Part shown: in pieces, positions 30,356-33,687 of the stretch
Position numbering within the stretch: the stretch's first letter is position 1
Layout: each line of letters starts with the position of its first letter
NCBI GenBank assembly: GCA_027460465.1
Contig: JAPZAV010000176.1
Coordinates: forward strand, 1 to 36,967
Length of the DNA stretch: 36,967 nucleotides
Origin: Candidatus Methanoperedens sp.
Lineage (GTDB): Archaea; Halobacteriota; Methanosarcinia; Methanosarcinales; Methanoperedenaceae
Reading direction: 5' to 3'
The notes under the pieces: generated by a model
The model's input: the letters and a program-made list of their open reading frames with translations, nothing else
What the model was told of the DNA's origin: nothing
Databases searched by the model: none
Program-made: the position numbers and the translations under genes

Positions 30356-30480
30356 TATTAAATCCCCGGCGACAGTACTTTCCCGGAGCAGCAATATTCC
30401 AGAGCCGTGCTGATGGGGGGATCTGAAGACGTGCGCTTATAGGCACGGAGGGGTAGCTAATCAGTTCGGTTGTTGTTCTG
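30356..30480. repeat. Repeat copy A: truncated left part of MITE-like element
   Basis: TATTAAATCCCCGGCG plus exact 23-nt TTCCCGGAGCAGCAATATTCCAG (30380-30402) and AGCCGTGCTGATGGGG shared with copy B. Confidence 0.75.
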
Positions 30481-30615: not shown

Positions 30616-30966
30616 TTGAAAGCAAGAAATTTCAAAAAAAATTGGACTGAATCACCTATCAAAGATATCCTTCAAGAACTAAAGGAAGGGCTGCAGAAGA
30701 GGTACGGAAGCAAGCTCAAAAGGATAATGCTATTTGGATCGTATGCGAGGGGCGAGCAAAGAAGCGACTCCGATGTAGACGTAGCTATAATCCTTGAAGA
30801 TTTCTCCCATGCCTGTGCTGAGATCGAACGAACTGCTGACATTGTTTCCTCAATTTCTTTGAAATTCGATACGCTCATTTCTCTTGTCCCAATAAAGGAA
30901 GAGGACTGGTACAAAAGGAAGACTTCTCTGGTATCAAATATCAGGCGCGATGGGGTGGCGATATGA
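30616..30966 (+). CDS. MNT-type nucleotidyltransferase (antitoxin of HEPN/MNT pair 1; TTG start)
   Basis: LFGSYARGEQRSDSDVDVAII. Confidence 0.92.
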   Translation: MKARNFKKNWTESPIKDILQELKEGLQKRYGSKLKRIMLFGSYARGEQRSDSDVDVAIILEDFSHACAEIERTADIVSSISLKFDTLISLVPIKEEDWYKRKTSLVSNIRRDGVAI

Positions 30967-31346
30967 ACGAGGAAATTGATGCGCTTTTGAAGAAAGCTCT
31001 GGACAGCATCAAAGGTGCCAGGCTTTTGTTTGATGATGAACTATACGGATTTGCAGTTTCAAGAGCCTACTATGCCATATTCTATCTGGTAAGCGCGGTG
31101 CTCGTGACCAAGAGTCTTAGTTTTTCAAAGCATCAGGCTGTGGTTGCTGCATTTGGTCAGCATTTCGTCAAGACCGGAATCTTCGAGCAGAAATTCCATC
31201 GGTATTTCGTAGAAGCTTTTGAACAGAGGCAGATAGGGGATTATGAACCGATGGAAGAGATAACACAGGAAACGGCAAAGAAGAATATTGAGAGGGCCAT
31301 TGAATTTTTGAATGTTGTTAAAGAGTATCTTGAGAACAAGAAATGA
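30963..31346 (+). CDS. HEPN-domain protein (pair 1)
   Basis: SRAYYAIFYLVSAVLVTKSLSFSKHQAVVAAFGQHFVKTG; 4-nt overlap with MNT. Confidence 0.92.
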   Translation: MNEEIDALLKKALDSIKGARLLFDDELYGFAVSRAYYAIFYLVSAVLVTKSLSFSKHQAVVAAFGQHFVKTGIFEQKFHRYFVEAFEQRQIGDYEPMEEITQETAKKNIERAIEFLNVVKEYLENKK

Positions 31347-31404
31347 CCCGGTAAATACTCCAGGCAATAAATTGAAACTGCAGCATAATTATTACAGTCC
31401 AATT

Positions 31405-31650
31405 ATTAATATCCCGGCGCCGATACGTTCCCGGAGCAGCAATATTCCAGCAGAGCCGTGCTGATGGGGTGGGCTCGGATCTGAGGACGGGGCGCTCATG
31501 GGCGCGAGGTGTCCTGGCGCCTGCTGAGGGGCTGGTGGGGCATGCAAAAGATGTCTGATCCTGCGGAGGGCGCCCGCGGCCTGGAGATGCAATTTTATCA
31601 GGCGCGGTTTTTGATGTGGGGTAGGGCATATCGGCGCCGGGGGATTAATA
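31405..31650. mobile_element. Repeat copy B: MITE-like element with terminal inverted repeats
   Basis: Left TATTAATATCCCGGCGCCGATACG (31405-31428) vs reverse complement of 31627-31650 TATTAATCCCCCGGCGCCGATATG, 21/24 identical by eye; no transposase inside. Confidence 0.72.
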
Positions 31651-31886
31651 TTTAAGGAGTGATGAAACTCAATTATAACTAAAAGAGAAACTCTCAGCTT
31701 TTCCCACCCTTCATCACCCCACCCCCTGCTCCCACCCGCGCCGTTCATAACCGGTACGATCCTGTCCAGCAGAGGTTAGCTCTCAACCTCTTTCTTATGC
31801 CATACTTTTTCTGATCTCCAGGGTGAACGGAGAAAGGTCTTCGATCAAAGCATGGTCGGAAATGAGAGCGCGCACAGCGGGTGATA

Positions 31887-31949
31887 GTTTTATATACTGA
31901 ACTTGCGTTTAATATATTGAACGGTGGTTCATTTGATTGAACTGTTCAA
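31887..31949 (+). promoter_or_regulatory. Promoter/operator of wHTH-MNT gene: TATA-like box with three 20-bp-phased TGAAC half-sites
   Basis: TTTATATA then CTGAAC at 31897, TTGAAC at 31917, TTGAAC at 31937; inverted partners GTTCA 31927-31931 and GTTCAA 31944-31949. Confidence 0.6.
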
Positions 31950-32496
31950 AAAATATGTACATTGGAAGATCCTGGCCCATTTTATGGAAAACCCGAATAC
32001 CACTTTCCATATAAAACAGCTTGCGAGGATCATTGAGGTAAGTCCTGCCAGCGTGAGCAGTGCTGTTAAATCTTTCGAGAAAGAAGGACTGCTTCTAAAG
32101 GAAGAAAAGGGACTGGCTCACCTCTACAGGCTGAATGCAGATAATAGTGTGGTCGCACCACTTAAAAAAGCATATGGCATCGCTTTAGTGCTTTCATCAA
32201 GACCTGAAGAAAAATTCCTCGAGGTAGACCCGCATATCATTTCCCTTGCCCTTTTTGGAAGTTATGCAGAAGGAAGCTATGATGAAAAAAGCGATATAGA
32301 CTTTCTGGCAGTAACTCCCGCCAGAAAAGAAAACCTCATAAGCACTGCAAAAAGACTGGAAGAAGAACTGAAAAAAGAGGTAAGCATATCGGTATTCAAA
32401 TTATCTGAATGGAGAACCATGGCAAAAAAAGGTGATGCATTCTACAAAAGGATTGTGGAGAATCACATCCTGCTATACGGGAGCGGATTAAAATGA
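31924..32496 (+). CDS. wHTH domain fused to MNT nucleotidyltransferase (pair 2; GTG start, or TTG at 31933)
   Basis: N-terminal FHIKQLARIIEVSPASVSSAVKSFEKEGLL; LFGSYAEGSYDEKSDIDFLAV. Confidence 0.92.
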   Translation: MVHLIELFKKYVHWKILAHFMENPNTTFHIKQLARIIEVSPASVSSAVKSFEKEGLLLKEEKGLAHLYRLNADNSVVAPLKKAYGIALVLSSRPEEKFLEVDPHIISLALFGSYAEGSYDEKSDIDFLAVTPARKENLISTAKRLEEELKKEVSISVFKLSEWRTMAKKGDAFYKRIVENHILLYGSGLK

Positions 32497-32936
32497 AGCT
32501 TGATGAGTGTTTCCAGAAAGGTCTGCTGAAGAGAATATCGCCTGATATGGTGAATGCCGATCGTTCCATCAAGCTTTCCATTGAAAATATAGAAGACGCT
32601 GCTGAGAATTTCTCCATACATCGCTACAGGGTTGTGGTGATCTTGAGTTATACAGCCATGTTTCATGCAGCACGAGCGATCCTTTTCAGGGATGGTATAA
32701 AAGAGCGCAGCCATGAATGTATCCCTGTTTATATTGTAGAAAAGTATCCAGAACTGGAGACTTTAGCAAATATTCTTGATTCATACAGAAGATTCAGGCA
32801 CGATGCGATCTATGGACTTGATTTTGCCAAAGATGAGAAAGAGGCACGAGCTTCCCTGGAAACTTCAAAAGAATTTCTGGAAAAAATAAAGATTTTCATA
32901 GATAAGGAAAATGATATCAATGCGAAAACCGGGTAA
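32493..32936 (+). CDS. HEPN-domain protein (pair 2)
   Basis: AMFHAARAILFRDGIKERSHECIPVYIVEKYP...RRFRHDAIYG; 4-nt overlap with MNT. Confidence 0.9.
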   Translation: MKLDECFQKGLLKRISPDMVNADRSIKLSIENIEDAAENFSIHRYRVVVILSYTAMFHAARAILFRDGIKERSHECIPVYIVEKYPELETLANILDSYRRFRHDAIYGLDFAKDEKEARASLETSKEFLEKIKIFIDKENDINAKTG

Positions 32937-33119: not shown

Positions 33120-33390
33120 CGGCGGGGCATACAAAGATGGCTGAGCTTGCGGAGGGGGACGGCGGCAAGGAGCTGCGAGTTCTATCTGGCGCGGTTTTTG
33201 ATGCAGGGGGGCTGCCCTGGGCATATCGGCGCCTGGGGATTAATATTTAAGGAGTGATGAAACTCAATTATAGCTAAAAAAGAAACTCTCAACATTTCCC
33301 ACCCTTCATCACCCCACAGCCTGCTCCACCCACGCCAGATCCTTCATGATCAGCACGATCTTATCCCGGCGTGGGTAGCTCTCAACCGAA
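33120..33390. repeat. Repeat copy C: right part of MITE-like element plus conserved right flank
   Basis: GGGCATATCGGCGCC(T)GGGGATTAATATTTAAGGAGTGATGAAACTCAATTATA..CTAAAA..AAACTCTCA..TTTCCCACCCTTCATCACCCCA nearly identical to 31624-31735. Confidence 0.8.
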
Positions 33391-33524
33391 TTCTTTAGCA
33401 GCATCGAAAAAATGCTTGAAGATGTTGATGCATTTCTTATATTTCTTTCCACTGCCGCAGGGTTAGTCTTTTGTCAGTCCTGTCGTTTATGAAGATGCGG
33501 CATTGTTCATCTGTGGCTCAGTTA

Positions 33525-33609
33525 TGCGAGGGGAGGGATTCGAACCCTCGAACCACTACTGGATTGGACCCTAAATCCAACGCCTTTGACCTGGCTGGGC
33601 TACCCTCGC
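33525..33609 (-). tRNA. tRNA-Leu (anticodon TAG), class II, including discriminator A, no encoded CCA
   Basis: Reverse complement GCGAGGGTAGCCCAGCCAGGTCAAAGGCGTTGGATTTAGGGTCCAA...GAGGGTTCGAATCCCTCCCCTCGC A; acceptor, anticodon and T stems pair. Confidence 0.95.
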
Positions 33610-33687
33610 AAAAGGCGTATTCGCTGGTGAGCGTTGAGATGAAACTTATCGCATAAAGCTTTGATGTTCCGGAATAATCAGTGTGCG

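Follow-up and report, generated by a model that had tools for sequence, protein, structure and literature searches.

The window, by which we mean the whole stretch of 36,967 nucleotides from Candidatus Methanoperedens sp. analysed here, contains two overlapping genes for a predicted antitoxin and a predicted toxin, preceded by a TATA-like element and an array of short repeats (Table 1). The first gene encodes a protein with the Pfam domains MarR_2/HTH_24 and NTP_transf_2, that is, a winged helix of the MarR type joined to a minimal nucleotidyltransferase (wHTH-MNT). Its AlphaFold2 model has high confidence over the whole length (pLDDT 95.3) and shows a wHTH, with a recognition helix at residues 38-50 and a two-stranded wing, followed by an NTase fold similar to that of MntA (for example 7bxo and 8xeo). 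The N-terminal winged helix that an earlier note had read from the sequence is seen in both the domain match and the model. The MNT part carries the GSX10DXD motif (GSYAEGSYDEKSDID), with G109, S110, D121 and D123 invariant in 59 proteins, and the protein matches the PADLOC profile PDC-M05A (3.1e-26), with an additional weak AbiEi profile match on its wHTH part. Carriage on plasmids was considered and rejected, as a tblastn search of PLSDB gave no match; for viral contigs, the broad alignment offered no stretch with enough conservation to scan with.

The downstream HEPN protein has the motif R102-H-D-A-I-Y107, in which a tyrosine stands where RX4H would have its catalytic histidine. Across 21 aligned HEPN partners Tyr107 is invariant, R102 is nearly so, and position 103 is His or Asn in most. 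The pair therefore lacks the RX4HXY of Class I HepT/MntA (type VII) modules and has the sequence features of Class II HEPN/MNT: a PF01909 MNT gene comes first, the adjacent PF05168 HEPN gene overlaps it, and the HEPN protein lacks RX4HXY while keeping the conserved tyrosine. In PADLOC terms the pair can be filed only as PDC-M05-like despite the PDC-M05A match, because the HEPN protein (32493-32936) has no PADLOC profile match at E 0.01 and so none to PDC-M05B. We infer that HEPN would act as the toxin and wHTH-MNT as its antitoxin, which in this class would neutralise the toxin by AMP transfer; Tyr107 may be the AMP acceptor. Repeated dyads lie over the operon promoter and are conserved with the gene, as in an autoregulated toxin-antitoxin system, and the best reading of the sequence is a Class II HEPN/MNT toxin-antitoxin pair (PADLOC candidate PDC-M05) with a cognate autorepressor array.

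Table 1. Features of the wHTH-MNT/HEPN locus (positions in the window)
Feature	Position	Strand	Basis
TATA-box-like TTTATATA	31889-31896	+	sequence; orthologue alignment (relatives mostly TTTTTATA, same position)
Operator site 1 (putative), CTGAAC-TTGC-GTTTAA, adjoins TATA box	31897-31912	+	left arm conserved, right arm degenerate
Operator site 2 (putative), conserved dyad TTGAAC-GGTG-GTTCA(T)	31917-31932	+	orthologue alignment
Operator site 3 (putative), half-site TTGAAC in codons 2-4 (I-E-L)	31937-31942	+	orthologue counts
wHTH-MNT protein, predicted antitoxin and autorepressor, 187 aa	31933-32496	+	Pfam, PADLOC, AlphaFold2, GSX10DXD
HEPN protein, predicted toxin, 147 aa	32493-32936	+	PF05168 1.1e-12; start overlaps wHTH-MNT stop
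tRNA-Leu gene	33524-33610	minus	Rfam match

Directly upstream of this pair lies a second MNT/HEPN pair (30616-31346), made of a standalone MNT (PADLOC PDC-S09, 1e-34) and a PF05168 HEPN protein, with a 47-bp direct repeat, 85% identical, on either side (30356-30402 and 31404-31450); the copy at 31404-31450 overlaps an inverted repeat with 31629-31653. The wHTH-MNT/HEPN pair is itself flanked by direct repeats of about 250 bp (31547-31798 and 33133-33395, 80% identical). We considered these as the ends of a mobile cassette and rejected the idea, since pieces of the repeat turn up at seven further places in the genome, which marks it as a dispersed sequence that alone is no evidence for mobility of the pair. 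Further downstream, an ORF at 33471-33656 runs over the tRNA-Leu gene and is unlikely to be a real gene.

The array consists of three TGAAC copies at exact 20-bp steps (CTGAAC at 31897-31902, TTGAAC at 31917-31922 and 31937-31942), as the earlier note had observed. The triple is unique: within the 2.87 Mb genome it occurs just once without mismatch, and no other place has fewer than two mismatches. Across lags 10 to 40, none of 500 dinucleotide shuffles of the region from -65 to +27 repeated itself as strongly as the real sequence does. The TATA-like element that the note placed at the left end of the array is present, one base to the left of the 31890 it gave. The inverted partners it described for sites 2 and 3 exist in the window, where site 3 extends to 31949 as a 13-bp palindrome (TTGAAC-T-GTTCAA); the dyad of site 2 is also conserved and the palindrome is not, and the note overlooked that site 1 too has an inverted partner, a degenerate right arm (GTTTAA/GTATAT). 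Judging from its spacing to the TATA box, the transcription start is expected at about 31918-31921, which would put it under site 2.

Where the array ends relative to the gene depends on the start codon, for which there are two in-frame candidates, GTG 31924 and TTG 31933. TTG 31933 is the most likely start, since relatives L013, L029 and L035 have ATG there, in L035 directly after an in-frame TAG; those classes of wHTH-MNT genes with a clear ATG align at this position as well. With this start, site 3 falls inside codons 2 to 4, so that the note's placing of the third site within the reading frame holds, and the GGTG at 31922-31925, in the centre of site 2, would lie at a plausible distance for a Shine-Dalgarno sequence and may have this second role.

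The earlier note had set beforehand, as the finding that would speak against it, a loss of the spacing in orthologues. The comparison, run on named orthologues from Candidatus Methanoperedens, other Methanosarcinales and ANME-2, did not refute the model: in a first alignment of 12 sequences the block through site 3 was near-invariant, the flank before about 31883 was unrelated, and the array was present in 12/12. With 16 orthologues, mean pairwise identity was 28.5% in the flank (-110 to -52), 83% in the 49 bases before the start, 92% in bases 1-16 of the frame and 74% in the 104 bases that follow. The left arm CTGAAC of site 1 is kept in 14/16; at site 2 the left arm is TTGAAC in 11/16 and the right arm starts with GTTC in all 16; site 3 reads TTGAAC in 14/16 and TCGAAC in the remaining two. 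In these alignments the conserved unit is the dyad of about 16 bp at site 2 (TTGAAC-N4-GTTCA). Only 4 of 21 relatives have CTG as their fourth codon, and the palindrome at site 3 is therefore not conserved. The conservation of site 3 is partly explained by the coding sequence alone, and that of the GGTG in site 2 could reflect a ribosome-binding site. The glutamate codon of site 3 is nevertheless GAA in 21/21, which puts it first in codon identity among the 37 conserved columns (median 0.48), and by this measure it is under synonymous constraint. The array has been lost in one relative with 52% identity (L035).

The 20-bp step is specific to wHTH-MNT genes and extends well beyond the close orthologues, as is evident from a scan for the lag at which the sequence around the start best matches itself without gaps. 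In a first set of 87 nonredundant upstream regions, the majority of them from the same class of archaea, lag 20 was best in 15 of 19 clusters. A second set, 141 wHTH-MNT antitoxin genes sampled from the phylum and grouped into 40 clusters below 50% identity, gave lag 20 in 25 clusters and another lag in 15, among them 21 in five and 22 in two. Among controls, which are all at chance level, lag 20 was best in 8 of 235 unrelated genes (Fisher p 2e-18), and in 1 of 38 ordinary wHTH genes (5e-9) and 0 of 24 standalone MNT genes (1e-7) of the same genome, p-values that overstate independence because clusters share ancestry and some have GAAC-like words by descent. The MNT/HEPN pair directly upstream likewise has no 20-bp array in the lag scan. 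Autorepression of toxin-antitoxin operons is known already; of the phylum-wide 20-bp array at wHTH-MNT genes we found no description in the open-access papers searched.

The geometry is shared and the repeated words differ between clades. The word TTGAAC-N4-GTTCAA belongs to the class of the window and that of L140, and elsewhere we find, among others, TTGAATGATCATTCAA (L078), TGATACAATTGTATCA (L037), ATCATACG..CGTATGAT (L036/L040) and, in L002, a paralogue in the same genome, TGTTACAA..TTATAACA. Several classes have the dyad over the start codon, for example GAACATATGTTC with the ATG at its centre (L112, L116). One genome (G006) has eight wHTH-MNT genes with eight differing arrays, three others (G000, G023, G027) likewise hold differing arrays, and most arrays of such coexisting genes match those of their orthologues in other genomes. 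Since words vary by clade and a single genome can hold up to eight, the array tracks the gene and not the genome. A broken second wHTH-MNT copy (L041, G020:C19:14755-14991), with one in-frame TAA, is also present, and the region upstream of it has no array. Similarity of the operator correlates weakly with that of the recognition helix once the MNT domain is controlled for (partial r 0.24, p 0.001), but it correlates with the MNT domain too (partial r 0.37), so that shared descent explains much of the relation. We therefore rejected a strong coevolution of specificity between recognition helix and operator, the correlation being weak and confounded by descent.

Could these repeats be something other than a cognate operator? 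One might suppose that only ordinary gene signals are conserved here and that the 20-bp step is incidental, and indeed the TATA-like element, the GGTG and the start codon all lie inside the conserved block, with site 3 in N-terminal codons. However, the CTGAAC of site 1, between the TATA box and the expected transcription start, has no such role and is still kept in 14/16 orthologues, the GAA of site 3 is more constrained in its codon than every other conserved column, and unrelated genes with similar signals show lag 20 at chance only (8/235). With the 20-bp step recurring across the family, this explanation has a very slim chance of being right. That some other, genome-wide regulator binds the array instead of the encoded wHTH-MNT is improbable as well, if a shade less so. 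The triple site occurs once in the genome, ordinary wHTH genes lack the 20-bp step, and coexisting wHTH-MNT genes carry different words, most of them matching orthologues elsewhere, which fits each protein reading its own array and not a single regulator. The dyad as such (TTGAACNNNNGTTCA) has three exact matches in the genome, and we rejected a genome-wide regulon on this count; allowing one mismatch, which makes for a loose pattern, gives 107 matches against 60 for the reversed control.

It is also conceivable that the repeats act in RNA, as a leader structure or translational operator, given that sites 2 and 3 could sit in or beside a short leader. Yet site 1 is upstream of the expected transcript start, the only Rfam match here is the tRNA at 33525-33609, and strict 20-bp phasing is what one would expect of a DNA helix and not of RNA; of the three alternatives, we find this by far the hardest to credit.

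We thus consider it very probable that the TGAAC sites form the operator of the wHTH-MNT/HEPN toxin-antitoxin operon, filled by same-face, possibly cooperative wHTH-MNT dimers that would repress it. A dimer, alone or with HEPN, would recognise a dyad of about 16 bp of the TTGAAC-N4-GTTCAA type through its two recognition helices. Since the dyads recur every 20 bp, about two helical turns, successive dimers would come to lie on one face of the DNA, where they could bind cooperatively. Because the three sites lie at the TATA box, the expected transcription start and the start of the frame, a filled array would exclude TBP/TFB and RNA polymerase, and a drop in free antitoxin would then empty the array and allow the operon to be re-expressed. 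Binding, cooperativity and repression are proposed here from sequence. Autorepression through same-face sites, as the earlier note had suggested, is the best-supported model, a proposal that gains from the spacing being kept in orthologues and from a 20-bp step that recurs across the family with other words. It is tempting to generalise that self-recognition follows a single geometry in archaeal wHTH-MNT antitoxins, with an array phased by two turns that ends over or beside the start codon. Its words would have diversified, so that up to eight paralogous modules per genome could be independently regulated; on this broader idea we are evenly divided.

Archaea commonly carry Class II HEPN/MNT modules and PDC-M05, and a family-wide operator geometry offers a testable handle on them, as the operator of every module would be readable from sequence, cognate and non-cognate pairs could be predicted and true start codons fixed by means of the array. 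One footprint would inform on dozens of gene clusters. With eight arrays that differ in a single genome, one may also ask what prevents paralogous toxin-antitoxin modules from repressing each other.

Several known systems resemble this one in part. PDC-M05, reported as an archaeal-enriched nucleotidyltransferase and HEPN pair whose antiviral role is unconfirmed (PMC12988326), is related through the PDC-M05A match; here, however, the downstream HEPN has no PADLOC match at E 0.01, and that paper mentions neither promoter nor operator. The window shares with Class II HEPN/MNT modules (PF05168/PF01909) the PF05168 HEPN, the MNT with GSX10DXD, the conserved tyrosine and the absence of RX4H; the available part of PMC7641770, whose authors knew of no biochemical study of this class, describes no operator for it, in contrast to the operator proposed here. 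In the type IV system AbiE, the two-domain antitoxin AbiEi autorepresses through inverted repeats in its promoter, according to PMC7319586. A two-domain antitoxin with inverted-repeat autorepression is what we propose here too, and the wHTH gives a weak match to the AbiEi profile, but AbiE has its nucleotidyltransferase-like protein as the toxin, encoded by a separate gene, whereas here the NTase is fused to the wHTH and the partner is a HEPN protein. Finally, in the Class I, type VII module HepT/MntA of Shewanella oneidensis (SO_3166/SO_3165), the promoter contains two palindromes and is bound and repressed by the module's own antitoxin (PMC4621449, PMC7641770); SO_3165 has no predicted DNA-binding domain, and the two palindromes are dissimilar (PMC4621449). 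Both modules have the MNT gene upstream of the HEPN gene and the GSX10DXD motif, and the MNT half of our protein has MntA among its nearest structural matches, but the module described here has a wHTH fused to the MNT, dyads phased at 20 bp and a HEPN protein that does without RX4HXY.
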